Source: Okeania sp. KiyG1
Lineage (GTDB): Bacteria > Cyanobacteriota > Cyanobacteriia > Cyanobacteriales > Microcoleaceae
Direction: 5' to 3'
Assembly: GCF_014132355.1 (NCBI RefSeq)
Contig: NZ_BLZO01000070.1
Location: forward strand, 1 to 64,000
Length of the DNA: 64,000 bases
The translations under genes were made by a program, and so were the position numbers. This document shows, one piece after another, positions 12,144 to 64,000 of this stretch (positions are counted from its first letter, which is position 1; each line of letters opens with the position of its first letter). The notes under the pieces were generated by a model that did not search any database, had not been told where the DNA came from, and was given only the letters and a program-made list of their open reading frames with translations.

Positions 12144-12925
12144 TTATTTTAATCTAATTGAGACAAGTTTTACACAAACTAAAACCACTAACCCTAAAGC
12201 TAAAATTCCAGCAGTAACTGCAATTACTGGCATATCTAAATGACGAATTACAATAGCTATAAGTGCCCAAACAAATACCAGAGGATAAGCAATATCTTGC
12301 TTTTGTATATTAATAATTGCTGCAATAATTGCTCCAATTATTAACATAACTATTGTCCAAACTATGGCAACTTGTCCTGTACTATTCCAGCCTAAATAAT
12401 GGAGGGCGCTTGCTATATTCACAATCGTTGCGACACTAATCCAAGCAAAATATATACTGATGGGATAATGAACTAACCATTTATCTTTTTTTGACACTCT
12501 TTCATAACTAATTCCTAAATTTAGATATAGGCAAATTAAACAGCCTAAAATTCCTAACATTGCCAAAACGGAAAGAGTAAATAATTCAAATTGAAATAAA
12601 AATACCCAAACTATTTGTGCCAGACTTGCACCCACTAAAAAATATCCACATCTCTGTAAAATTGGATTTTCTCTTTGTACTGGTAATACTTGATAAATTC
12701 CAAAACTAATTAAACCTAAATAAATTAATCCCCAAATTGCAAAAGCATAACTAGCCGGAATAATCAAAACATCCTGAAATACAGTATTAGAAATTTCGCC
12801 AATAGTTTTGCCACCAGGAGGAGCAAGATTAACATAAACATTCAGAAAAAAGCAGCAATAATCCCTATTAAATTAGCCCACTGCCGAATAATGTTTGAAT
12901 TAAATTTGTTAGTATTAGTTTCCAT
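12144..12925 (-). pseudogene. Tryptophan-rich sensory protein (TspO/MBR-like), one frameshift
   Basis: A multi-helix membrane protein. The intact-looking part (from 12767) has about six hydrophobic helices and the family segment IIPASYAFAIWGLIYLGLIS. The true N-terminus lies upstream: ATG at 12925 reads METNTNKFNSNIIRQW to GIIAAFF and then hits TGA at 12844-12842, while the next frame continues LNVYVNLAPPGGKTIGEISN straight into the downstream part. One T is missing from the six-base T run (plus-strand A run 12846-12851). Restoring it gives one protein of about 261 residues. It may be a sequencing error rather than decay. Confidence 0.8.
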
Positions 12926-51677: not shown

Positions 51678-52301
51678 TTAGTTTTTCCTGTTATTCTCCA
51701 AACTTTTACGTTCGCTATAGCGGTCTGTCAAATAATCAATTTTATCTCGCAATAATAATGTAAACTTGTATAATTCCTCCATAACATCAACAACGCGATC
51801 GCGATACGCTGAATCTTTCATTGTCCCATCTTCATTAAATTCCTGATAAGCTTTCGCTACAGAAGACTGATTTGGAATAGTAAACATTCGCATCCATCTG
51901 CCCAAAATTCGTAGGGTATTAACTGCATTAAAAGACTGAGAACCCCCGCTCACTTGCATAACTGCCAAAGTTTTTCCTTGAGTTGGACGCACTGAACCAA
52001 TACTTAAAGGAATCCAGTCAATTTGATTTTTGAGAATGCCTGTAATATTACCGTGCATTTCTGGCGATGTCCAGACTTGCCCTTCAGACCATTGACTCAG
52101 TTCTAGCAACTCTTGAACTTTTGGATGAGAATCTTCTACTCGTCCTCGTAAAGGTAGATCGTGGGGATGAAAAAATTTCACTTCCGCTCCCATTTCTGTA
52201 ATTATCCGAGCAGCTTCTTCTGCTAACAAACGACTGTAGGAACGTTCGCGCAGAGACCCATATAGGAATAAAATTCTTGGAGGATGGTCAAAATTTGTCA
52301 T
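51678..52301 (-). CDS. arsH: Arsenical resistance flavoprotein ArsH
   Basis: 207 residues. NADPH-FMN oxidoreductase that oxidises trivalent organoarsenicals or cycles quinones. The FMN-binding signature is [19 protein letters not shown], followed by [20 protein letters not shown] and [20 protein letters not shown]. Second gene of the ars group, 148 bp after ACR3. Confidence 0.95.
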
Positions 52302-52449
52302 TTCTGAATTCTGTTATCAAAGTGTATGCTTTATTTAGGTGGTAGGTTTTAGATTTTAGGTGGTAGGTTGTCAAGAACAAATTTTAAGTTGGCAGTTTCA
52401 ATATATTCATAAATATAAATTTAGATTTCTCCCCCACTCCTCTACTCCC

Positions 52450-53682
52450 CTACTCCCCCCACTCCCCTACTCCCCCACTCCCCACTCCCCACTCCCCTAC
52501 TCCCCCACTCCCCACTCCCCTACTCCCTACCAATGGAGTCGCATAACAACGAGGGTCAATTAATGTTGCCTTTTCTGGTTGGCGAGGGAACCAAAAAGCT
52601 GTGCGTTTACAAAATTCTACCAACATCAACATTACTGGTACTTCTATTAATACTCCCACTACTGTTGCTAAAGCTGCCCCAGAATTCAAACCAAATAGAG
52701 TAACTGAAGTGGCGATCGCTACTTCAAAATGATTACTAGCTCCAATTAAAGCAGCAGGAGCAGCATCTTCATAATGTAATTTCATTTTCAAAGCTGCTAC
52801 ATAAGTAATCAAGAAAATAAAATTAGTCTGGAGAAATAGTGGTACTGCTATCAACAAAATATGAAAGGGATTTTCTACAATTAATTCTCCCTTAAAAGCA
52901 AACAATAAAACTAAAGTTATCAACAAAGCAGCAGTAGAAACCGGACTTAAATACTTGAGAAACTTACGCTCAAACCATGCTTTTCCTTTATTTTTGAAAA
53001 TCCAGTAACGGCTATACATTCCAGCAGCTAGAGGTAAACCCACATAAATTAGCACCGATAAAACAATAGTTTCCCAAGGCACAGTTAAATTATTAGCTGA
53101 CAGTAACCACCGTCCAAGTGGAGCATACAAAAATAACATTGTCAAGGAATTAATCGCCACCATTACTAATGTATGTCCCTGGTTGCTGTAGGAAAGATAA
53201 CCCCACATTAATACCATTGCCGTACAGGGTGCAATACCAAGTAATATTGTTCCAGCAATGTAGGAGTCTGCCAAAGCTACTTCTGTACCGCGCAATATTT
53301 CTGTACCTGTTAATAGTGGACGGAATAGCCAACCGAGGAAAATTTGCGCAAACGCTACCATGGTAAAAGGTTTAATTACCCAGTTAATGATTAATGTTAA
53401 GATGACGGGTCTGGGAGCATGAGCTGCATTTCTGGTTTGGGTAAAGTCTATTTTTACCATGATGGGATACATCATAAAAAATAAACAGATAGCAATGGGT
53501 ATGGATACTTGATAAATACTCATGGCATCTAATGCACTGGCAACACCAGGAAATATTTTCCCTAGTGCAATACCTGTGAGGATACACAAAGCTACCCAAA
53601 CGGTGAGATATTTTTCAAAGAAGCTAAGTTGACCCCCTGCTTGCACAGCAGATGTGTTTACTTGTGATGAATTTGTACTCAT
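52450..53682 (-). CDS. arsB: Arsenite efflux transporter, ACR3 family
   Basis: 410 residues, about ten hydrophobic helices. It extrudes arsenite. Signatures: [35 protein letters not shown] (the conserved cysteine) and [20 protein letters not shown]. The native end is probably near YATPLV; the last about 26 residues ([14 protein letters not shown] twice) are read from a CCCCACTC/CCCTACTC tandem repeat, which also supplies the stop. First gene of the ars group. Confidence 0.93.
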
Positions 53683-54337
53683 AATTTGTGTAATTAATAT
53701 TCTGTTCGTTTTGTGAGAACTTTATACATATTTAGGTTGAATAAGATTGCATTTACTGGGATATTTGGTTGATCGGTGGTATTGAATTATTTAGCAAGTT
53801 TTTTAGTAAGAGAGTAGACTGCTGACGCTACAGACATTGAGCATTACTGCTACTCCAATGATGACGATCTTGCTGCTTGAAATTTTTCAGCAGTATTTTT
53901 GTTCATATTTTTTATATAGTGCTACGCGAAATGGGAATAGGGAACAGGGAATAGCAAACTGTAAAAGGGTTTTTTCGTGCGGAAATGCTCCGTGAACAGG
54001 ATTAAAAAATGTCCTAACCAATTCTGGTAGTGCTATATCTGTTATATTTCAAAAAAAATTGATATTTGAGACAATTCAAGTATAACTAAAAAAGTGGAGG
54101 TAAGTACAAACTTATGCAATTTCCTATCAAGTCAAAAGCTATACCTATAGCCTAGGTTGTGGTCGGATAGTTCAATCTCTCCTGCAATACCCCTGCTAGG
54201 AGAAAATGTATGAGTATAAGATATTCGTATGTATTTGTTAATAAAATATATGTATTATTTATATGTCACTCATAAAATTTAGACATTTGGTCTCGGATTG
54301 GTATACTTGAAGCATAGGGTATACCAAATCCAAATTT
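53683..54337. other. Upstream region of the ars group
   Basis: No gene. It must hold the promoter of ACR3; no arsR gene or clear ArsR operator is visible. A family G MITE lies at 53914-54038. Confidence 0.5.
53914..54038. mobile_element. MITE-like element family G, diverged copy
   Basis: Ends ATATAGTGCTACGCGAAATG / AATTCTGGTAGTGCTATAT, with GGGAATAGGGAACAGGGAAT in the centre, as at 46465-46591. Confidence 0.55.
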
Positions 54338-54411
54338 GGACGTATAGCTCAGTTGGTTAGAGCACTACCTTGACATGGTAGGGGTCACAGGTTCGAGTCC
54401 TGTTACGTCCA
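54338..54411 (+). tRNA. trnV-GAC: tRNA-Val (anticodon GAC)
   Basis: 74 nt. Acceptor GGACGTA/TACGTCC, D arm GCTC-AGTTGGTTA-GAGC, anticodon stem CTACC/GGTAG with loop TTGACAT giving anticodon GAC, and T arm ACAGG-TTCGAGT-CCTGT. Discriminator A; CCA is not encoded, as usual in cyanobacteria. It directly precedes the segment with phage-like genes. Confidence 0.97.
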
Positions 54412-54775
54412 TAGTCCTGCAACCCCCACCAGTAAAGGTGTTGCTCTAACACTCGCTAAAGCTCGACTGAGCTAATCAATAATCACTGATTTTCTTCTGC
54501 CAGTATACTGCCAATTTGATATAGAAATAAAATATTTGTCATGAAGATGGCCATATTCGCCCTACTTCTTCGTGCTGGCCACTTATGATTATCAATATTA
54601 ACTTTAGGTGTAATATCTTTTCTTAAACAAAGTTATATAAATAATTTGTATAACAAATAATATTACGCATACAACCACGAGTAAAATACAAAAGTTGGCA
54701 TTTTGTAAAATTTCTAGTATACTTAAAAGTGTTCAGCTTCCTGCTTTGAGCTTTTGGCCATTAAACAGGATTAGG

Positions 54776-55018
54776 TGGCCATGCCAGCTAGAGGGATCAT
54801 AACGTAGCGACCGAGGTAGCCTCACTCTAGTTAAATCCTCGACAAAATAGGTTAGTCAAGATTGCTTGTACGATGCAACGGTAATTCTGAGAACTTGCAC
54901 GCACCTTATACAAAACGCGAAAACAAACAGGAGAATACTACGGTTCGGGAGTCTTCTAAGCAAGAATCCTTGCATAAGCGAGGCGATACAGGTTCAAGTC
55001 CTGTCTTCCGTTTTTTTT
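54776..55018 (+). ncRNA. Structured RNA candidate ending in a tRNA-like T arm
   Basis: The last 72 nt (54940-55011) end in a perfect T arm ACAGG-TTCAAGT-CCTGT and CTTCCGT followed by eight Ts. The 5' end ACGG can pair only with CCGT (4 bp), and no proper D or anticodon arm is seen; instead CTTGC-ATAA-GCGAG forms a hairpin. Upstream to about 54776 the sequence is G+C-richer, with paired pieces (GCTAGAG/CTCTAGT). It might be a degenerate tRNA, a tRNA 3' half left at an integration site, or an intron-bearing tRNA-like RNA. Confidence 0.35.
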
Positions 55019-55040
55019 GTCTAGGTGGGTAATGTAGCTT

Positions 55041-55070
55041 AAGATTGGCTTATAAGCCAATCTTTTTTTT
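55041..55070 (+). terminator. Rho-independent terminator
   Basis: AAGATTGGCTTA (55041-55052) and TAAGCCAATCTT (55053-55064) form a perfect palindrome followed by a T tract to 55070. It would stop plus-strand transcripts from the tRNA/ncRNA region just before the convergent PP-loop gene. Confidence 0.8.
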
Positions 55071-55077
55071 TAACAAA

Positions 55078-55884
55078 TCAATCTTCAATAAAGCAACCAC
55101 ATCCCCCTATAAAATCGTCTGATGAGTTAGACTGCATTGATTCAGATTCAATTCTTTCCCTAAATTGCTTGAGAGTCAATGTACCTCCTTTCTCCCTTAT
55201 GATGCAACCACTTTGTTTGGAGATCAGCTCAAGAAACTGATTTTCTCTTTTCTCGTGATACATATATCTTTCAGGGAAATGATTTAGCAATTTCCTAAAC
55301 TGCTTCTTCCCTGCTTTCGAGCAGAAACCCCCGCAATTTGCATGAGAAAAACCATATTCGTAGAGCCTTGGCGGCTTTAAACCATCGTCTTTTATCGTCT
55401 GAAAAATTTGATTTCGATCTACCCAATCACCCCAACACAAAGGATAATCTACGCTATAAGGCTCCCAATTCTTGGTTATTTTCTCAGTCCTATGGTATTC
55501 ATTGAAATCTATCCCAAAATACAATACGCATTCAGTGGCAGAAAAATTTGAAGAAACAAACTTACGACAAGGTTTGATTTTAAGCTCCATAGAGCAATTA
55601 GAGACTCTATGATTAACAAATCTTTTTTCTTCGTATATATCCCACGGAGTTTTTTTGTTTTTTAGAACGACTAATTCTGTTTCTAGAAAAAACGCTCCAT
55701 CGTATAGAAACCTGTAATTGTCCTCATCTTCAATGTTTGTGTCTGCAAAGACTAGCAGGCAATTGTCTTTTCCATATTTTTCTACAACCATTTTTGCTGC
55801 AACATAACTAGCCGCTCCACTAGAGTAGAAAATAATATGCTTCACTCCAGAATTACATTTGCTCTCAGTCAAACTCATATTCAT
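55078..55884 (-). CDS. PP-loop (PAPS-reductase-like) protein, phage type
   Basis: 268 residues. An adenine-nucleotide alpha-hydrolase fold: HIIFYSSGAASYVAAKM sits where the SGGxDS PP-loop is found, and FADTNIEDEDNYRFL resembles the following strand. Cysteine-rich ends (CGGFCSKAG, GGCGCF) may bind metal. Phages and defence islands carry such proteins for base or sulfur modification. The PP-loop is atypical (no K/D), so adenylation is uncertain. It begins the phage-like segment. Confidence 0.65.
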   Translation of the reverse strand: MNMSLTESKCNSGVKHIIFYSSGAASYVAAKMVVEKYGKDNCLLVFADTNIEDEDNYRFLYDGAFFLETELVVLKNKKTPWDIYEEKRFVNHRVSNCSMELKIKPCRKFVSSNFSATECVLYFGIDFNEYHRTEKITKNWEPYSVDYPLCWGDWVDRNQIFQTIKDDGLKPPRLYEYGFSHANCGGFCSKAGKKQFRKLLNHFPERYMYHEKRENQFLELISKQSGCIIREKGGTLTLKQFRERIESESMQSNSSDDFIGGCGCFIED

Positions 55885-56011
55885 TGTGGGTAAATTTCTT
55901 TCTTCCGTACAGCAAGTATAACATTTTTAGGCGATCGCTCTTTTCCCAAATCATGCTTTAATTCAGCAACACCATTTTTGTATAAATAAACTGTATAAAT
56001 AACTTGTTGCA

Positions 56012-56045
56012 CAAAAAAATCTAGTGCGTACAAGACACACTAGAT
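56012..56045 (-). terminator. Rho-independent terminator after the DUF4031 gene
   Basis: On the minus strand ATCTAGTGTG (56045-56036) pairs with CGCACTAGAT (56028-56019) around TCTTGTA, followed by seven Ts (56018-56012). It ends the DUF4031 transcript 37 bp after the stop. Confidence 0.8.
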
Positions 56046-56081
56046 AAACGTTATTTCTATTAAATCATTTTGATTACAGTA

Positions 56082-56348
56082 TTAGCTTTCTTTGTTCTTC
56101 TTCAGCTCTTTCATCATTTTAACGAGACCCCTGGAGTTAATAGGAATAGCTCCATGTTTGATAGCTAACTTTTTCTTTGACTGTGAGACATCAAAATGCT
56201 CGTGCCAAGTACCACGAACTTGGATCCACTCTTCTTTGAGACCTATCTTGGCTGCAAATTCAATTAGCTCTTCTGTAGATGTGTCACTACTCATATGACA
56301 CATTACCATATTCCGAAATCTGCCATTATAATCATCAACGTAAATCAT
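56082..56348 (-). CDS. DUF4031-domain protein
   Basis: 88 residues. MIYVDDYNGRF, MSSDTSTEELIEFAAKIGL and TWHEHFDVSQSKKKLAIKHG are the DUF4031 signatures, a small family common in phages. AAAGGACG precedes the ATG. Molecular role unknown. Confidence 0.8.
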   Translation of the reverse strand: MIYVDDYNGRFRNMVMCHMSSDTSTEELIEFAAKIGLKEEWIQVRGTWHEHFDVSQSKKKLAIKHGAIPINSRGLVKMMKELKKNKES

Positions 56349-56375
56349 AATCGTCCTTTATTGTTTTGTTCGCAA

Positions 56376-57434
56376 CTATCCTTTAAATCTATAGCAATAG
56401 CACCCATTAAGCTTGATGAACTCCCAACCTAGCAAACTCATTACTTGGTGGCGTTTAGCAGTGTTTGTTTTTGGGAATATTCCACCGACTACTCCTCGGT
56501 TAAAACAAGCGATCGCCTCTGACGAAGTTATCGTAGTATCAACGAGTTTCTCGCCTTTGACAATTCGTTTTGAATTGATTAAGTGAAAGCGGTGAATCGT
56601 TGAATCTAAGATAGGTTTTAAATATCTTGTCTCAGCGATATACTCTTGAACGGGGTATGATAAAAGCATTGCATGGTGTAATACTTCAGGTGCGCTCTTA
56701 CTAGGTGCAGGAGGATTGTTATTGCTTTTCTCCTGTACCTTTTCCTTAGGAGGATCTTGAGAATCTGCCATAGCAGTTGAGCGAATCTGATATCCAGCTA
56801 ATTGATGGAAGAAGACGCGAGTACCAGCGATCAGCATTGCAGTAGTTAATTTTGGGTTGTCATTAGGTATCCATTCTGCAATGATTTTTTCCGGGATTAA
56901 GGAAACCCTTTGAATCCCCCCTGGAGTTTGGACTTCAACCATTTTTACTTTGACTGAGGAAACCCCCTGAAGTTTAACAACTCGCTTAGAGATAGCTCCC
57001 TGGGTTACGCCTGACAATCTCGCGTAACCTTTTATAGAGCAAAAGCTTTCTCCAGTTTCAGTGTTAATGATAATCTCAATCCCATCATCGCTAATAAAAG
57101 TTTTGTGGACTAATTCACGCTCTTCAGACTTTCCCTTCGCTTGTTTCTCAGGAGATGGTTCCACTAAGACCTTACGCGCCTTCTGCGGATACTTAGCAGC
57201 TTCATACATTTCTAAGCATTTTCGGTCTATCTCTACTTCAAAATATTCTATATAGGAAATCGCCGGGAAGAACTTCTCCCAGTCACTATTCAGTGATTCA
57301 GTACCTACAAAAAAATCTAAATTCTCTGCCACCAAAGACTCACCTTCTAGTGAAATTAATTCATTGTCAGAGCTGTAAGTAGCCGTCAACTCCCAAAAAT
57401 TTCCTACGAACTTTAATTTTCTCATGTTTCTCAT
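56376..57434 (-). CDS. Phage antirepressor-like protein, long paralogue
   Basis: 352 residues from ATG 57434. A domain at about residues 110-225 (GIEIIINTETGESFCSIKGY, QTPGGIQRVSLIPEKIIAEW, NDNPKL) is shared with the next gene (GVEIVINPDFPDEIFCSVAG, LTPSGINQVKLIPKYIVEEW, MDNPTA). The rest is a proline-rich linker and a C-terminal domain ending GWEFIKLNGCYCYRFKG. The longer start at 57527 would place a terminator's T tract and a conserved leader hairpin inside the coding region, so it was not chosen. Transcription regulation is an inference. Confidence 0.6.
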   Translation of the reverse strand: MRNMRKLKFVGNFWELTATYSSDNELISLEGESLVAENLDFFVGTESLNSDWEKFFPAISYIEYFEVEIDRKCLEMYEAAKYPQKARKVLVEPSPEKQAKGKSEERELVHKTFISDDGIEIIINTETGESFCSIKGYARLSGVTQGAISKRVVKLQGVSSVKVKMVEVQTPGGIQRVSLIPEKIIAEWIPNDNPKLTTAMLIAGTRVFFHQLAGYQIRSTAMADSQDPPKEKVQEKSNNNPPAPSKSAPEVLHHAMLLSYPVQEYIAETRYLKPILDSTIHRFHLINSKRIVKGEKLVDTTITSSEAIACFNRGVVGGIFPKTNTAKRHQVMSLLGWEFIKLNGCYCYRFKG

Positions 57435-57449
57435 GGTCAATAAAATATT

Positions 57450-57490
57450 CAGTTTCTGGGTTCGTTTGATTTTGTGAACCCAGATGACTG
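57450..57490 (-). promoter_or_regulatory. 5'-leader hairpin, type shared with 58299-58347
   Basis: Inner stem TCTGGGTTC (57455-57463) / GAACCCAGA (57476-57484), 12-nt loop, outer CAGT/ACTG, with a 1-by-2 internal loop (T / TG). It ends 16 nt before ATG 57434. Compared with the sibling leader, two inner base pairs change in a compensatory way. Confidence 0.65.
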
Positions 57491-57525
57491 TATTTTTACT
57501 GGGGTAATCGCAGTAACTACCGTTC

Positions 57526-57560
57526 AAAAAGGATAGGAGATCCTAACAGCGGATCTCCTA
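57526..57560 (-). terminator. Rho-independent terminator between the paralogues
   Basis: TAGGAGATCC (57560-57551) pairs with GGATCTCCTA (57543-57534) around GCTGTTA, followed by five Ts (57530-57526). It lies 19 bp after the stop of the 57579-58283 gene. Confidence 0.8.
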
Positions 57561-57578
57561 GAGAGAATTAATCAAAAA

Positions 57579-58283
57579 TTACTTGTGGCGGGAACGATGT
57601 TTAGCTAAAGCTTTAATAAGTTTATTGTTAAAATTGTAGCTAAGCGGGTATTGAGACATAGAAGCCAAGAAGTGGAATGCGTCTTCACTTATCGCTCTTG
57701 CTCCGCGAACATCTAACTGGCCTACCTTGATGCAACAGAATCTTATTTCACGCCTGTCCAGATGTTTGAATAGCAAAGCTGCATCACTTAGCCCCAGATA
57801 TTTACAAACACCATCCACGAGGAACCAGAGCCCTTCTTCATCATCTGTAGCGATTTCTATCTCACATTCTTCTGAAAAGTAAAATTTTACAATGTCTTCC
57901 TCATCAAGAACCAATTTCTTGATATTTTTACTTTTCCAATGAGAGAAACTGCGATATACGGTTTTCCAGATAAAGGGAGATGGATAATGGGAGATTGCGA
58001 ATTGAAATTTTGCAAGCGCTGTTGGGTTATCCATCCGCAACCACTCCTCAACGATATATTTCGGTATTAATTTGACTTGATTAATACCCGAAGGGGTTAG
58101 TATTTTGACGACATCAAATTCAATGCCGGACTTTTTAATCCGATAAGAAATCGGCCTTGGGGGCATCTCGGCGAGACGGCGATATCCTGCTACGGAACAG
58201 AAAATTTCATCAGGAAAATCAGGGTTTATTACAATTTCAACTCCGGTATTGCTTTGGAGCATTTTGTAGGTTAAATTAGTCAT
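57579..58283 (-). CDS. Phage antirepressor-like protein, short paralogue
   Basis: 234 residues. The N-terminal about 95 residues are homologous to the middle of the 56376-57434 protein. The C-terminal half (FSEECEIEIATDDEEGLWFL, then VDGVCKYLGLSDAALLFKHL, DRREIRFCCIKVG) resembles a BRO-N/KilA-type domain of phage antirepressors (W-FV..DVC..LGLS). The leader hairpin 58299-58347 ends 16 nt before its ATG. Likely DNA-binding regulator; target unknown. Confidence 0.65.
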   Translation of the reverse strand: MTNLTYKMLQSNTGVEIVINPDFPDEIFCSVAGYRRLAEMPPRPISYRIKKSGIEFDVVKILTPSGINQVKLIPKYIVEEWLRMDNPTALAKFQFAISHYPSPFIWKTVYRSFSHWKSKNIKKLVLDEEDIVKFYFSEECEIEIATDDEEGLWFLVDGVCKYLGLSDAALLFKHLDRREIRFCCIKVGQLDVRGARAISEDAFHFLASMSQYPLSYNFNNKLIKALAKHRSRHK

Positions 58284-58298
58284 AATGTTCTTTTGTTG

Positions 58299-58356
58299 GA
58301 ATACAGTTTCTGAGATCAGTTAAAAAGAATCTCAGATGACTGTATTCTTTTTTTTT
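58299..58356 (-). promoter_or_regulatory. 5'-leader hairpin with T tract on the opposite strand
   Basis: Inner stem TCTGAGAT (58309-58316) / ATCTCAGA (58329-58336), 12-nt loop, outer GAATACAGT (58299-58307) / ACTGTATTC (58339-58347), with the same T / TG internal loop as 57450-57490. On the plus strand nine Ts follow (58348-58356), so it would also read as a terminator in that direction. Confidence 0.65.
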
Positions 58357-58421
58357 GCTCTCTAAGAAATTGCTATCATGTAGAAAAGATTTTCAGTCAA
58401 AAAAGAAGAGTAATTAGAACT

Positions 58422-58877
58422 ATGTATGATATTCTCTCTGGATACACCTGGGACGACATTGGTGTCACTTATGGGTTTAACACTAATGTGCCAATAGAAA
58501 TGCGAGAAAAGTTTCATAAAGCTGCTGATGACATCACAGGAAAGACTAGACTAACCCTAACTGAATCACCTACACCTGATATTTTTATAGGATTCGCAGA
58601 CACTCAAGGGTTCTTAGCCCTGGCTCATTACCCCGGTGAGTTTCTCATCAGTGGTGATATATTCCTTTCTCCAGAGCTATTGCAACAACCTGAGCGGTAT
58701 CAGGACTTCGTTGTGATACATGAGTTCGGTCATGCATTGGGGTTGGGTCACACTGATCGACAGGATTCAGTGATGACCGATAATTTAACGGGAATGGGAG
58801 TTGAGCAGATGTCTACCCAACTTACCCCCCTTGATACTTGGGCGATAGAGACTAGTTATCGCGATATTGTTGGCTAA
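58422..58877 (+). CDS. Matrixin-like (M10) zinc metalloprotease
   Basis: 151 residues. The zinc motif is HEFGHALGLGH (H100, E101, H104, H110), with a Met-turn methionine at 119 (DSVMTDN). The N-terminal part TYGFNTNVPIEMREKFHKAA, then ITGKTRLTLTESPTPDIFIG is like reprolysin/matrixin folds. There is no signal peptide and no prodomain. Its end overlaps the convergent gene by 26 bp. A phage-encoded intracellular protease is unusual; the substrate is unknown. Confidence 0.8.
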   Translation: MYDILSGYTWDDIGVTYGFNTNVPIEMREKFHKAADDITGKTRLTLTESPTPDIFIGFADTQGFLALAHYPGEFLISGDIFLSPELLQQPERYQDFVVIHEFGHALGLGHTDRQDSVMTDNLTGMGVEQMSTQLTPLDTWAIETSYRDIVG

Positions 58878-59427
58878 ATAACTGCTCTACTGCATGAGAA
58901 ACTCCTTTGTTTCTCATGAACTCTGTTAGTTTCCCTGTCTTAGCATACACAGAGAATATATCGACAAATGCATGTTCTTCAAACATGCAATATGCATTAG
59001 CTATCGCGATAGCTACACGACTAAAAAACACCCACTTACCTAATATTTCTATCGTGGGAACGAGTTCTATATCCTCTTCATCTTTTCCCAAACACAACAC
59101 CATTGCATAGGGTCCACATTCGCAGCGAAACAGCACCGTTTCATAAAAACTCTCTATTACATAAGTACCTGTTTTCTCTAAGAAATCGACTATTTCTTTT
59201 TCAGATATCGAATATAGTTCAGCCATCTTTGATATAGCAGCTTCGCTAGATTTTGCATTTTTTTTCATTTCAATAATTCCTCGATTTTTTTCTTTAATTG
59301 ATTGCTCGTAAGTTTTGACAATTCGGAAAGTTTTTCCCTCTACTTTTACCCAGCAGGTAACGATACCAGCCAAGGTTCTTAGGTACATATCGGCTTTAGC
59401 TCTGTCTCTAGTGGCTAACAATTCCAT
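58852..59427 (-). CDS. Hypothetical protein
   Basis: 191 residues, unrecognised. Features: MELLATRDRAKADMYLRTLA, a lysine-rich centre (GIIEMKKNAKSSEAAISKMA) and IEILGKWVFFSRVAIAIANA. It overlaps the upstream gene 59408-59875 by 20 bp, so the two are translated from one message. It might be a regulator (YSISEKEIVDFLE resembles a helix-turn-helix). Confidence 0.45.
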   Translation of the reverse strand: MELLATRDRAKADMYLRTLAGIVTCWVKVEGKTFRIVKTYEQSIKEKNRGIIEMKKNAKSSEAAISKMAELYSISEKEIVDFLEKTGTYVIESFYETVLFRCECGPYAMVLCLGKDEEDIELVPTIEILGKWVFFSRVAIAIANAYCMFEEHAFVDIFSVYAKTGKLTEFMRNKGVSHAVEQLFSQQYRDN

Positions 59428-59875
59428 TACTTTTCTTCGCTAACTCATTAGCTTTGCGAAGAAATTTCTGTAGGTCTTTATCTCTTGGTATTAGCTCTCT
59501 TCCTTCTACCAATTCCCACGGAAGTTGGATGACTATATTCGCAAGTTCTAGGCGTAGTTCACTTTCAATCTCATCGGGTGACTGTTTAAATTCAACTAGC
59601 TTGCGAAGGATAGAGTTAACTCTATCCTTATCTTTGATGATGCATACTTTTACATGATGGAAGTCAGGGTAAAGTTTTTCAATTCCTATTAATTCACCAT
59701 TAGAGGTGATAGCAAAACGTTCACCTTTCCAGCAATCATACGAAGCATTAAATTCATCTTTGGCTGATAAATAGTTTTTGACTTGAGAGTCGATAGCTAC
59801 TTGTAAGTAGTTGAAACAATAATTACAGGTAGTACAGAGGTTAAGGCAATCTTTGGTTTTTAATAGGCAAAACAT
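59408..59875 (-). CDS. Hypothetical protein with cysteine cluster
   Basis: 155 residues. CLNLCTTCNYCFNYL near the N-terminus could bind metal; the rest (SAKDEFNASYDCWKGERFAI, SPDEIESELRLELANIVIQL) is unassigned. First gene of the minus-strand pair starting just downstream of the 59910-59950 inverted repeat. Confidence 0.45.
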   Translation of the reverse strand: MFCLLKTKDCLNLCTTCNYCFNYLQVAIDSQVKNYLSAKDEFNASYDCWKGERFAITSNGELIGIEKLYPDFHHVKVCIIKDKDRVNSILRKLVEFKQSPDEIESELRLELANIVIQLPWELVEGRELIPRDKDLQKFLRKANELAKKSNGIVSH

Positions 59876-59909
59876 TTTTTCGTTGATAGGTCTATGTATG
59901 GATGATCTT

Positions 59910-59950
59910 TTTTGTACTACAAAAACATATTACAAATTTGTAGTACAAAA
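59910..59950. promoter_or_regulatory. Operator-like inverted repeat in a divergent promoter region
   Basis: TTTTGTACTACAAA (59910-59923) and TTTGTAGTACAAAA (59937-59950) are exact inverted repeats 13 bp apart. They lie between the divergent genes starting at 59875 (minus) and 60070 (plus). The half-site TTGTACTACAA is itself nearly palindromic, as expected for two repressor dimers. Confidence 0.7.
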
Positions 59951-60069
59951 TCACAAACTCTTGCCACTGAGGTAATCTAGCGGGTTTCTCTTTTATGTCC
60001 AAACTTCTTTGGGCCAATTTAATGCTAAAATAGAGAGTCATTTAACATTAGATTAAAGAGGTTGGAATT

Positions 60070-60255
60070 ATGCCCAGAGGGAAGCATAGACATGGATACA
60101 ATTGGAATGTACCTGATAAAGACAAAACAAATGTAAAAGTCCCGAAAGAAATAATGGAAGAGGTACAACAATTCGCTCAAGAATTGTGGGAGCAGAGAAA
60201 GAGGTCAGAAGAGCAGATGAGCCAAAGCGTTCAAGAGGATAGTGACAATGCCTAG
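60070..60255 (+). CDS. MPRG small protein, tandem paralogue 1
   Basis: 61 residues: MPRGKHRHGYNWNVPDKDKT, then VPKEIMEEVQQFAQELWEQR and an acidic tail. Basic N-terminus plus an amphipathic helix looks like a ribbon-helix-helix or copy-control protein, but this is not established. AGAGGTTGG precedes the ATG. Its end overlaps the next gene by 8 bp. Confidence 0.6.
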   Translation: MPRGKHRHGYNWNVPDKDKTNVKVPKEIMEEVQQFAQELWEQRKRSEEQMSQSVQEDSDNA

Positions 60256-60430
60256 AGGTGGTAGACGACATGGGTATGACTGGGGGATCTCTAAGAAGGA
60301 TCAAACCAGTGTCACAGTACCTAAGGCGATCGCAGAAAGGGTGAAAGAAATAGCTCAAGAAATATGGGAGGAGGAAAAAGCAAAAGAACAAGAGGATGAC
60401 CAAGAAGAAAATGATGATACTCAAGAGTGA
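60248..60430 (+). CDS. MPRG small protein, tandem paralogue 2
   Basis: 60 residues: MPRGGRRHGYDWGISKKDQT, then VPKAIAERVKEIAQEIWEEE, similar along its whole length to the preceding protein. An ATG two codons earlier (60242) is possible, but ATG 60248 aligns with the paralogue's start. AGAGGATAG lies upstream inside the first gene. Confidence 0.6.
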   Translation: MPRGGRRHGYDWGISKKDQTSVTVPKAIAERVKEIAQEIWEEEKAKEQEDDQEENDDTQE

Positions 60431-60531
60431 TTGACTTTCTATACTTGGGTGGTTGCTACCCACCTTCCTGCTGCTTAATTTGAGCAAACAATAGAGGCAT
60501 ATGCGCATCTGAGCGATGTCTTCAAGAATGC

Positions 60532-60768
60532 CTAGATTATTTTTTGCGTCATACCTTTAGCCCATTTCTCAAATGAACGCAAGATGTTTTTAATCTTACT
60601 CTTGGCTTGAAACATTGACTTGACATCTTCCCACAGAAGTGCGTACCTGTCAGCGTATGCTGTTTTCCAGGTTTTTAGGCGACGTAAATCACCATAGTTT
60701 TCTCTGATAATGGCTTTATCAATAAAAGAGAAATACTTTCTAAATTCAGATATTTTTGTCAAGTTCAT
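60532..60768 (-). CDS. Small hypothetical basic protein
   Basis: 78 residues from ATG 60768: MNLTKISEFRKYFSFIDKAI, then WEDVKSMFQAKSKIKNILRS. It is lysine-rich and helical, with no known family. A GTG at 60783 is in frame but lies in the leader hairpin. Confidence 0.45.
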   Translation of the reverse strand: MNLTKISEFRKYFSFIDKAIIRENYGDLRRLKTWKTAYADRYALLWEDVKSMFQAKSKIKNILRSFEKWAKGMTQKII

Positions 60769-60782
60769 AGTCTTATTAATCA

Positions 60783-60815
60783 CTGTTAGTAACTCAATCG
60801 TTGCTAACAGTTTTT
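60783..60815 (-). promoter_or_regulatory. 5'-leader hairpin, different sequence
   Basis: CTGTTAGTAAC (60783-60793) and GTTGCTAACAG (60800-60810) form an 11-bp stem (one G-T pair) with loop TCAATC. It ends 15 nt before ATG 60768, and five Ts follow on the plus strand, the layout seen at 58299-58356 and, less clearly, 57450-57490. Confidence 0.55.
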
Positions 60816-60998
60816 CTTTGCGACTGAAAATAGCCTAACATTGTTTGCAAGAAAAAATCTTTTAAGCATTATATAGATCTGCTTCGTAGTATTAATATTG
60901 CTAATATTAGTTATAAGCAAGTTTTATATAAAAGGGGTTGCTAGTTTTTGAGCAATTGCTCTATAGTAGAAACATAGCAAAAGAAAAGACGAGCAAAA

Positions 60999-61050
60999 AG
61001 GTAGGTAGCCTGAGAACCGACCGCGAAGGTTCGAGTATCGTAAGTTACCT
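60999..61050 (+). ncRNA. Short hairpin-rich stretch, unidentified
   Basis: AGGTA (60999-61003) and TACCT (61046-61050) close a region containing GAACCGACCGCGAAGGTTC. It is G+C-richer than the gap around it (60816-61285, otherwise without a gene). A leader or small RNA is possible; it could be chance. Confidence 0.25.
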
Positions 61051-61285
61051 CTCTGAATAAAGCTCACTTTACTGCTATAGGATTCTCAATTCATTTTGTT
61101 TAACAAATTATTGTAAGTAACTTGTTAAATAAACGCCGTTTTGGCGTTGAGAGTTATCTTGAATCTAGCCTGTCTGCGCTTGCAATCTATTTTTGTTGCA
61201 ATAGTTATTTATACAACCTTGTTATACAAGAACAGATACCTACAAAGACAGGCACTATCAGTACCTTGAAAATCAAATAGAGGAG

Positions 61286-62873
61286 ATGTGGAAACTCACA
61301 ATAACTTTAGAACTCTCTCCAGAGTTAGAAGCTAGGATGTGTTTGGATCCTGAAGAATACATAATTTCAGATTTAAAGCTTTTACTAGCTCCCATAGGAG
61401 AACTTATTTCCTATGAACTTGAAGAAGAAGGACCGGAAGAGTTTGATGAGATCGTTCAAAGAGTCACAGAGGCTTTCGATGGAAAAACAATAAACATTCC
61501 AGGAGGACAGCTCCCTCGTCCTTTAGGTAGTTCATACAACGAGAACCTAAATGAAGACCAGAAGAGAGCTATTGAGAACCTCAATAGTTGGTATTCAGGA
61601 GTCGAGCAGTCAACTATCTTGACTGGGGGTGGTGGCACAGGCAAGACTTATACCTTGTCTAAATGGTTATCATCATTGTTAAACGTTCAAGCAGACTTCT
61701 TAAGTCCTACACATGGAGCTAAGAAAGTGCTAGAAACCTCGCTCCAAAAAAATAGTATTTATTGCGAGGTAAATACTATAGCTCAATTCTTGGGGAAGCA
61801 GCCTGTTATTAACAGTGAGACTGGGGAACAAGAATTTAAGACAGTTGTAGACAAGGAAGGAGGTGATTTAGTCGTTTGTGACGAGTCTTCTATGATCGCC
61901 AAAGAAGACCTTGAAAGGATCCTTTCAAAAGGAAGAAAGATTTTATTCGTTGGAGATGAAGCGCAGTTACCTCCAGTGGGGAGACAATAGCTCCCGCTTT
62001 TGCGCTCGGTTGCCAGCAGATTCGGTTAAATCAAATCATGCGAGCGACTGGACATCTCGCTGAAGAAGTAGCGAAGACAAGAGATGCTTCTTTATCGGCG
62101 AGTATCTACCTTCCTAAAGCAGGAAAAGGGGTTAGTTATATCTCAATGGAGCAGGCTATTTCTATTGGCGTCGATCTATTCAAAAGTCAGGACTACGAAA
62201 AAGATGAAAATCACTGTAGGTTCTTGGCTTTTAGGAACGAAACGGTTGATTTTTTAAATCAACAATTTCGGAAGAAAGTAGGTGTAAATGCACTTTATCT
62301 TATGCATAACCGCATAAGATGCAATAAGCCAGTAACTCGCTTGTCCGATGACATGGAACGAGACTTGAATGGGTTGAGAAAAATTCAATTTAATATTTTT
62401 GTCAACATGGGTGACACGATCAAAGTGATATCGCCTCCAACGTCGATTCCGTAGAAAGTATTGTTAAAAAATTTGATGCTTTTATCAAGCGAGACGCCAT
62501 AGAGGTATTTTTTCCACTGTTAGCGGGGAAAATAATTGGATTTGAAGCGGAGATATCCAAGGGGCTTAGGTATGAATCCTACGTCCTTTCAGCCAGTTGC
62601 TCCGGACTAAAAGAAAATCTAATCACTAAGTTTCAACAAGAGCTTAAGAAGCCAAACCAAAGGGACGCTAGAAAGGTTCTCAAACTTCTTTATAATCTGG
62701 GAGATTCTTACAAGGATTTGTATGCGTCCACCGTACACAAAGCTCAAGGAGTCTCTATACGACATTGTTTCGTTTACCTAGACGATTTATTGCTATCTAA
62801 GACAATTCCACACGCTTTGTTGTACACAGCTTTCAGTAGGGCATCAGAACAACTGTACATCATCAAGGATTAA
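61286..62873 (+). pseudogene. RecD/Dda-type superfamily 1B DNA helicase, two frameshifts
   Basis: Walker A GGGGTGKT (residues 114-121), motif II VVCDESSM, motif III FVGDEAQLPPVG. After one missing G in GGGG (61978-61981) the sequence goes on in another frame as ETIAPAFALGCQQIRLNQIM to about 62440, where a second one-base loss leads to NVDSVESIVKKFDAFIKRDA. The C-terminal motifs are STVHKAQGVSIRHCFVYLDD and LLYTAFSRASEQLYI. Reassembled length is about 530 residues, close to phage T4 Dda-like helicases. Such helicases open origins or remodel forks. Confidence 0.85.
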
Positions 62874-62878
62874 TCGAA

Positions 62879-63238
62879 ATGAAAATATTTCACTGGTCTG
62901 AAATCCATTACCTTCACCATCAAATCGCTCCAATTGAGTTGATGACACTGCCTGAAGGTCATGTTTTGCAACTTAATTGTCGCTTAGCGAAAGAAGTGCA
63001 GAAACTAACAGATAAAGAGTTGCGGTACGTTCGGTTTGACAATGAATATATCAAATATCGAGTCACACAACTGTTGGCAAAAATAACAGTAAGTGACAAA
63101 AAAAGAATTCTTTCAGGTCTACTGAGTGAACTAGAGGTCTCAAAGGTAACGCCAAATAATAACTTGTTATCTGCCTCAGAATCTCAAGAAGTTGTTATGG
63201 AGACGATTACTGATGAGATCGAAAACGAACAAGTTTAA
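62879..63238 (+). CDS. Hypothetical protein
   Basis: 119 residues, starting 5 bp after the helicase stop. MKIFHWSEIHYLHHQIAPIE, then KELRYVRFDNEYIKYRVTQL; a low-complexity acidic end. No known domain. It is likely in the same operon as the helicase and the DUF1064 gene, whose start it overlaps by 26 bp. Confidence 0.55.
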   Translation: MKIFHWSEIHYLHHQIAPIELMTLPEGHVLQLNCRLAKEVQKLTDKELRYVRFDNEYIKYRVTQLLAKITVSDKKRILSGLLSELEVSKVTPNNNLLSASESQEVVMETITDEIENEQV

Positions 63239-63680
63239 TGCAGTAAAGACTACAGCTAATGGGATCAAGTTTGATTCCAAGTACGAAAGTCAAGTATATC
63301 TTAAACTCAGACATATTTTGAGACTAGAATCAATTCATTGTCACCATAGAGCAGCTTATCTAGGAGAGAACGGTCCTGACAAAAGATTGTGTATCTCCAA
63401 TGCATATTGGAGAGTCGACTTTATGATCAAAGATGGTAGCAAATCTTTATTTGCTATCGAAGCTAAAGGGCGATTTACGCAACCAGATAAGTTTAAATTT
63501 CTCTTGTGGGAATTGTATCAGAACATTCCACTTATTGTTGTTCATTCAGAACGAAATAAACCAAGAGGGTTGCACTCCAGCGGGTTAGTTCATTTCCTGG
63601 TTTGGGAGCAATTTAATTTAATGTCAGGGAAAGATTTAGTAGAATTAGTCAAGGTAATCAAGAACAGATGTCGAGGTTAA
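63213..63680 (+). CDS. DUF1064 nuclease-like protein (phage resolvase type)
   Basis: 155 residues from ATG 63213. NKFNAVKTTANGIKFDSKYE and SQVYLKLRHIL are the DUF1064 start, WRVDFMIKDGSKSLFAIEAK the PD-(D/E)xK-like core (D, E-x-K). Phage members are thought to resolve Holliday junctions. An ATG 21 nt upstream is possible but adds non-family residues. Confidence 0.75.
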   Translation: MRSKTNKFNAVKTTANGIKFDSKYESQVYLKLRHILRLESIHCHHRAAYLGENGPDKRLCISNAYWRVDFMIKDGSKSLFAIEAKGRFTQPDKFKFLLWELYQNIPLIVVHSERNKPRGLHSSGLVHFLVWEQFNLMSGKDLVELVKVIKNRCRG

Positions 63681-64000
63681 AGTTGACAGAAAATGAGATA
63701 AATCTGATGCTTCAAATAGATACATTAGATTCTATCTCTGACTTAGAGGAAGAGACATTAGATGCTTTCTTCCCAGATGACTTCGTTTGGAAAGATTACA
63801 ATGCTCGCAGTATACCTGCTGATTATTTAACTATTCGCGAGCGAAGCACGATTTATTGCCGAAAGGACGATAAATATTTTTTCATAACGGATACATCCTA
63901 CCTAGGAAATTTCGTTTGGGTGATTTTTTCTGACCATCCTATGTTTCCAATCTTCCAATCGATTGGAAGATTGTTGAATGTACAGTTGAAAAAAACTGAT
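63668..64000 (+). CDS. Hypothetical protein, runs off the window
   Basis: ATG 63668 overlaps the end of the DUF1064 gene by 13 bp; 111 codons are open to the last base. MSRLKLTENEINLMLQIDTL, then SDLEEETLDAFFPDDFVWKD and KYFFITDTSYLGNFVWVIFS. No family recognised. It contains a perfect 26-bp palindrome at 63948-63973. Confidence 0.6.
   Translation, partial: MSRLKLTENEINLMLQIDTLDSISDLEEETLDAFFPDDFVWKDYNARSIPADYLTIRERSTIYCRKDDKYFFITDTSYLGNFVWVIFSDHPMFPIFQSIGRLLNVQLKKTD
63948..63973. repeat. Perfect 26-bp palindrome inside a coding region
   Basis: CAATCTTCCAATC (63948-63960) is followed at once by its reverse complement GATTGGAAGATTG. It encodes the residues around IFQSIGRLLN, so it is both coding and fully symmetric. 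Confidence 0.85.

Follow-up and report, generated by a model that had tools for sequence, protein, structure and literature searches.

Two related genes and their leaders in Okeania sp. KiyG1

The window, by which we mean the whole 64,000-nt stretch of this marine cyanobacterium that was analysed, carries on its minus strand two neighbouring genes for related proteins, each preceded by a hairpin in its 5' leader (Table 1). A sequence-only reading of this DNA had called the genes paralogues; their homology is real and partial, with 42% identity over residues 4–90 of the short protein (E 1.9e-13). The shared part is HTH-like, and in the long protein it forms the middle, between an N-terminus of ~100 aa with no assignment and a C-terminal module in common with a BRO protein of Okeania sp. 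SIO2B3. Neither Pfam nor PHROGs matched the long protein at E ≤ 0.1, and an anti-repressor label for it is suggested solely by its shared modules. In the short protein, the C-terminal half matched Pfam Bro-N (E 0.0064, below the gathering score) and the anti-repressor family phrog_2899 (E 2.8e-4). A PADLOC HTH model matched both the long protein (E 8.1e-4) and the SIO2B3 protein (E 4.2e-7). Relatives of the shared module were found in three genomes of the same family (G370, G353 and G285) and in Anabaena phage A-4L (31.6% identity). Searches with the long protein matched A-4L alone among phages (two records of one phage) and nothing among plasmids, while the short protein had no match among viral contigs, genome contigs, phages or plasmids. 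The structure predicted for the short paralogue had a pLDDT of 36, and searches of solved structures returned no meaningful match. The relative of the long paralogue in phage A-4L is ORF14R, ahead of which lie two copies of AAGGTGCGAACCAATTGACC (L013 6333–6352 and 6390–6409).

The proposed move of the long gene's start from the TTG at 57527 to the ATG at 57434 makes sense, as a frame opening at the TTG would run through the hairpin; another in-frame ATG, at 57422, is also possible. An intrinsic-terminator-like hairpin follows the short gene, so the leader hairpin of the long gene (hairpin A) is probably preceded by a separate promoter and is probably not needed to end the short-gene transcript. 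Judging from their spacing, the DUF4031 gene and the long paralogue are probably on one transcript.

The neighbouring genes encode, besides the DUF4031 protein, a PAPS-reductase-like protein, a helicase, a resolvase-like nuclease and a methyltransferase with phage-family matches, and these matches make the setting phage-like. No capsid, tail, terminase or integrase gene was identified among 18 protein queries against PHROGs (two of them from the related SIO2B3 genome), and three candidate open reading frames at the right end gave no match at all; a prophage is therefore what we infer. A possible integration site is a tRNA-Val gene (54337–54412) close to the left-hand limit of the phage-like genes. 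Among these genes, on the plus strand and divergent from the short paralogue, lies a matrixin-like metalloprotease gene (58422–58877; Peptidase_M10, E 6.3e-11). Several frames occupy 58852–59875 where SIO2B3 has one of 201 aa, and the helicase at 61286–62873 is likewise split where SIO2B3 has a single 532-aa frame, which may mean decay of the window's element or errors in the assembly. A relaxed TTTGT-N3-ACAAA palindrome has eight plus-strand matches in the 64 kb, seven of them within 6.6 kb of phage-like genes (54645, 56003, 59911, 59937, 61095, 61121 and 61218), some paired and some ahead of genes. These look like operators of a phage repressor. The SIO2B3 element has just two scattered matches and repeats another palindrome between genes, TTATATAAGTAATTACTTATATAA or part of it (L022 ~12179–12202 and 12874–12891), possibly the mark of a different immunity type.

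Table 1. Features of the two loci (window positions, except for the SIO2B3 copies)
Feature	Position	Strand	Basis or remark
DUF4031 gene	56082..56348	-	Pfam PF13223, E 3.1e-23; 27 nt downstream of the long paralogue
Long paralogue, 352 aa	56376..57434	-	start ATG 57434 (or ATG 57422)
Hairpin A	57444..57496	-	fold z, own-genome pattern, covariance model R1
Intrinsic-terminator-like hairpin with T5	57534..57560	-	directly after the short gene
Short paralogue, 234 aa	57579..58283	-	shared module, then Bro-N/anti-repressor-like domain
Hairpin B	58298..58348	-	fold z, covariance model R1
T8 tract	58349..58356	+	after hairpin B read antisense; intrinsic-terminator shape that way
Hairpin C	L022 10769-10817 (Okeania sp. 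SIO2B3, genome G250)		fold z -6.56 sense, -3.29 antisense
Hairpin D	L022 11756-11805 (SIO2B3)		covariance model from A, B and C, 20.1 bits; 10 nt before the neighbour gene's ATG

Hairpins A and B are built from the same parts in the same order, as the sequence-only reading had it. Each has an outer stem, then a 2/1 internal loop with CA facing A on the sense strand, an inner stem of 8–9 bp and a loop of 10–12 nt. In A, a 9-bp inner stem (UCUGGGUUC/GAACCCAGA) closes a 12-nt loop, and the outer stem consists of 4 bp of continuous pairing, CAGU/ACUG, followed by an imperfect A/U extension with two A.A mismatches. In B, the inner stem is UCUGAGAU/AUCUCAGA plus a U.G pair and the outer stem has 9 bp; with the closing U.G counted the loop is 10 nt, so that the 12-nt loop ascribed to both copies holds for A and not for B. 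The claim that each hairpin ends exactly 16 nt before an ATG proved to be an artefact of unequal stem ends (57450 and 58299). Measured from equivalent columns, the distance is 9 nt to the ATG at 57434 for A and 14 nt to the ATG at 58283 for B, and it is 20 and 10 nt for copies C and D, respectively.

As sense-strand RNA the hairpins fold with z scores of -5.73 (A) and -5.56 (B), in either case better than any of 200 dinucleotide shuffles. Within the 10.98-Mb genome, the exact pattern CAGTCATCTG...CAGAAACTG is confined to these two sites, and a reversed-pattern control gave zero matches. Covariance model R1 scored them at 68.1 (A) and 70.0 bits (B), both being among its building sequences. In a survey of 75-nt leaders from a greedy gene list of locus L021, with 60 shuffles each, the A and B leaders had the lowest z (-6.7 and -6.2). 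Hairpins of unrelated sequence gave two further leaders nearly as low a z (-6.0 for that of L021:14559 and -5.5 for that of L021:13017); strong leader hairpins per se are thus not rare in this element. Just past the window, at L021 12948–12988 (contig 64947–64987), a 314-aa gene has a perfect 16-bp hairpin with a 9-nt loop 28 nt ahead of its ATG; this hairpin is unrelated in sequence to A and B.

Further copies in Okeania sp. SIO2B3 and the conservation of shape

The covariance-model search that had been suggested for cyanobacterial and cyanophage genomes did yield a further covarying copy, hairpin C, with two more pairs changed on both sides, and a weak one, hairpin D; its harvest was narrow, both being in SIO2B3. 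Hairpin C precedes the gene of a 573-aa BRO protein with two Bro-N stretches (E 8.5e-33) and a match to the anti-repressor family phrog_130 (E 5.3e-62). The C-terminal 127 residues of this protein are 53% identical to the long paralogue of the window, and residues 167–264 match the N-terminal half of BstA in the PADLOC BstA model (E 1.2e-7; phrog_6287, E 9.1e-6). A search of viral contigs with the C-gene protein gave no match. Hairpin D has the 2/1 internal loop and 9-bp inner stem of A–C and a sense-strand fold z of -5.86; it lies below significance at genome scale and was absent from the genus scan (6 genomes, E ≤ 10). In scans of 183,671 bases with filters off, only D and a palindrome at locus L063 reached at least 20 bits besides A, B, C and their reverse strands. 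D is therefore likely a fourth copy, ahead of a gene for which we saw no match to the BRO/HTH regulator family. The genes downstream of A, B and C begin with different modules (unassigned in A, HTH-like in B and, judged by eye, Bro-N in C), so the leader is kept independently of the N-terminal coding sequence.

Within the D leader (L022 11746–11820), CCCTC before the hairpin pairs with a GAGGG Shine-Dalgarno-like stretch in the 75-nt fold, a pairing that is lost once 30 coding bases are added.

Aligning A, B and C on the common structure left 51 of 54 cells paired, with 10 of the 18 pairs invariant and 5 changed on both sides. The shuffled mean for such changes was 2.3, and 6 of 500 shuffles reached 5, a frequency that by the tool's own warning is not a probability. 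Sliding the partners by 1–3 columns left 23–46% of cells paired. Two inner pairs had been said to differ between A and B in both arms, and they do: the first is G-C in A, G.U in C and A-U in B, and the second is U-A in A, U.U in C and A-U in B. Copy C is thus the exact intermediate of both inner double changes; it is identical to A over 14 nt on its left side and to B over 12 nt on its right. A third difference in both arms lies in the outer stem extension, where A-U of A is G-C in B, and in C the outer stem has changed from G-C to A-U and from A-U to U-A. In pairwise alignments among A, B and C the hairpins scored z 6.9–8.9 and their 60-nt flanks -0.7 to 1.6 (mononucleotide shuffles). For pairs with D, the values were 4.6–4.9 for the hairpin and -1.0 to 2.5 for the flanks, the 2.5 (B versus D, downstream) being reached by 4 of 300 shuffles. 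By these alignments the copies are homologous, a conserved island within diverged DNA. The covariation counts are small, from three firm copies in two genomes, and the same sequences defined the structure; within that base they support selection on the folded shape. Since a third copy with changed letters retains the same shape, the fold itself is probably what matters.

Distribution of the element

Among 389 genomes of the order, a covariance scan returned matches at E ≤ 1 in 19, of which two were convincing, the window's genome and SIO2B3; in the other 387 no match exceeded 27.2 bits. The six next matches (23.5–27.2 bits, from five genomes) either folded poorly or were palindromes with a layout other than the motif's, and the top three lie inside, at the end of, or adjoining housekeeping-type genes. 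Judgement was by folding for the window's genome, SIO2B3 and these five, and by score alone for the remaining 12 of the 19. Two 31-bit matches among 217 genomes of a second family, both intergenic between housekeeping-type genes, were rejected by eye, and the genus scan (6 genomes, E ≤ 10) returned nothing new.

We collected 33 homologue loci with ~1.5 kb of flank and scanned 22 of them as such. The best match had 23.0 bits (L063), and the others at most 19.1; the L063 match is a palindrome resembling a terminator that separates convergent genes, on the downstream side of its BRO gene. L014, L015, L019, L020, L058 and L059 were covered within the scans of L021 and L022, and L077, L078, L079, L081 and L083, by score and place repeat copies or fragments beside scanned loci, were left out. 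The first 13.8 kb of Anabaena phage A-4L gave no hairpin match up to E 3. Seven exact-motif matches in viral contigs and one in another genome of the order (L005) folded without the full hairpin, and of 11 matches to a looser pattern (4 viral, 7 in genome contigs) only that in SIO2B3 (L053) folds as the motif. Scans that covered more than 40 genomes were run with stricter filters and would miss divergent copies such as D. On these scans the element seems specific to one Okeania phage-like lineage rather than a general BRO leader, and its scope is so far narrow, with three firm copies in one genus. An Rfam search of window positions 52001–64000 (E ≤ 10) returned six matches, none overlapping the hairpins, which therefore match neither the c4 antisense RNA (RF01695) nor another Rfam family. 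We found no published description of this hairpin element in the literature.

Possible modes of action

Many phages encode BRO and anti-repressor proteins. How the expression of these proteins is kept down is known for few, and a leader with an exact intermediate offers a testable handle. Our favoured explanation, to which we assign a probability of roughly one half, is that the hairpin is a cis-acting mRNA element in the 5' leader of BRO/anti-repressor-type genes of one Okeania prophage-like lineage. Three such genes each have a copy before them, alike in position and orientation; that the copies act in the mRNA is what we infer. A phage or host RNA-binding factor would recognise the stem around the CA/A internal loop, and because the hairpin ends 9–20 nt before the start codon, the bound form would hinder 30S entry; alternatively, the unbound hairpin might set mRNA stability. 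Anti-repressor-type regulators would thereby be held low until the lytic switch, and a regulated protein may itself be the putative binding factor.

Several features weakly favour sense-strand RNA as the acting form: the asymmetric loop kept in A–C, the presence of three G.U cells and no A.C when the A–C alignment is read on the sense strand, and the position before ATGs. The fold z is also better on the sense strand in all four copies, although in three of them the antisense strand has the lower folding energy, which speaks against this reading. A sense-strand intrinsic terminator was rejected, as a U-tract is present in A only. The predicted fold leaves the region 5–15 nt before the start codon unpaired at 0.25 in A and 0.27 in D versus 0.88 in B and 0.83 in C; A and D would partly occlude it and B and C would not, so there is no common sequestration scheme.

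A less likely reading, and the best placed of the alternatives, is that the inverted repeat is a double-stranded DNA operator, bound by dimeric HTH/BRO proteins or a phage repressor and controlling transcription. The repeat lies near gene starts, the proteins carry HTH-like modules, and separate operator-like palindromes (TTTGTNNNACAAA) occur in the same region. The sequence-only reading had allowed for either selection on RNA structure or a symmetric operator, and while the folded shape is supported, the half-sites are not equally spaced: CAGT-N3-CTG faces CAGT-N2-CTG in A and B, with the same offset in C, so that a 1-nt asymmetry is kept in all three. Five pairs, moreover, change base with complementarity kept, which a protein reading sequence alone would not preserve, and no promoter hexamers stand out nearby. 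A promoter scan found 11 promoter-like sites versus 12.6 expected, with no promoter or transcript start assignable near the hairpins, a result that counts against the mRNA reading as well.

It is improbable, in our estimate, that the hairpins act on the plus strand as terminators of an antisense RNA covering the ribosome-binding site and start codon, for which the sar RNA over the P22 anti-repressor is reportedly a cis-antisense precedent. The antisense side is the T-richer one (6, 8, 4 and 3 T in the 8 nt past the stem of A, B, C and D versus 5, 0, 2 and 0 on the sense side), and the antisense folding energy is the lower in A (-20.6 versus -18.5 kcal/mol), B (-22.8 versus -21.0) and D (-16.7 versus -15.0). 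C is the sole copy with the lower sense energy, and it is far weaker in antisense (-11.5 versus -16.6 kcal/mol). With up to 12 nt, most loops are longer than is usual in intrinsic terminators, the conservation of sequence and internal loop goes past a terminator's needs, and the sole plus-strand promoter-like match near A (57419–57446) would start inside the hairpin.

Descent without function, in which a palindrome was duplicated with the genes, its copies are alike through recent origin or recombination, and its symmetric differences arose by gene conversion between arms or copies, we regard as quite improbable. The copies are few, and C joins an A-type 5' arm to a B-type 3' arm, as a crossover of two leaders would. 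Against this, the flanks and coding N-termini have no detectable similarity and the shared protein parts are 42–53% identical, so unconstrained hairpin DNA should have diverged too; the outer stem of C has in addition changed compensatorily.

Protein-bound translational operator hairpins are known from ribosomal-protein leaders and phage coat-protein operators, and the c4 antisense RNA is a case of RNA control of phage anti-repressor translation. The Okeania hairpin resembles such operators in being short, with a conserved internal loop, close upstream of a start codon, but it excludes the start codon itself and its binding protein is only putative. In IsrK-anrP of Gifsy-1, an RNA near the start controls synthesis of a phage anti-repressor (PMC4825925), and PMC2864571 lists Proteobacteria and phages for the c4 antisense RNA. 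The Okeania element would be like both in placing a structured RNA near the start of a prophage anti-repressor-type gene, with a plausible role in the lysis-lysogeny decision. Unlike them, it consists of just one short hairpin, with a 2/1 internal loop, that recurs before several genes, with no separate small RNA seen and no Rfam match.

With BstA and aba, too, a cis element is conserved where a prophage gene for a protein with a KilA-N/BRO-type domain has its 5' end. In the available text of PMC8585504, aba is a 63-bp element of a Salmonella prophage that takes in 29 bp before bstA and 34 bp at the beginning of the gene, has terminal direct CCCGCC repeats and apparently acts as DNA; the term "inverted repeat" has 0 occurrences in that text. 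The Okeania hairpins, by contrast, are inverted repeats and end before the ATG. That they serve as cognate DNA for prophage self-recognition in the manner of BstA is therefore very improbable: the C-gene protein has a BstA-like stretch, but the A and B proteins lack a BstA model match at E ≤ 1, and the hairpin precedes several genes, one of them (D) without a family match.

The hairpin could also be a portable recognition tag for modular prophage BRO/KilA-N/HTH regulators, kept before genes whose proteins differ in domain order. The regulators themselves would read it, and from prophage to prophage the tag and its reader would change in concert. We hold this proposal to be rather unlikely. As part of it, the reading of the tag might amount to autogenous control of translation, if the tag is RNA, or to aba-like self-recognition, if it is DNA. 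In another Okeania genome (G326), a BRO gene lies between two direct copies of GAAGAATTTCAGTTGACTGAACTTTAATCTT (L060 ~1064–1092 and 2237–2265), as if it formed a mobile or duplicated cassette.
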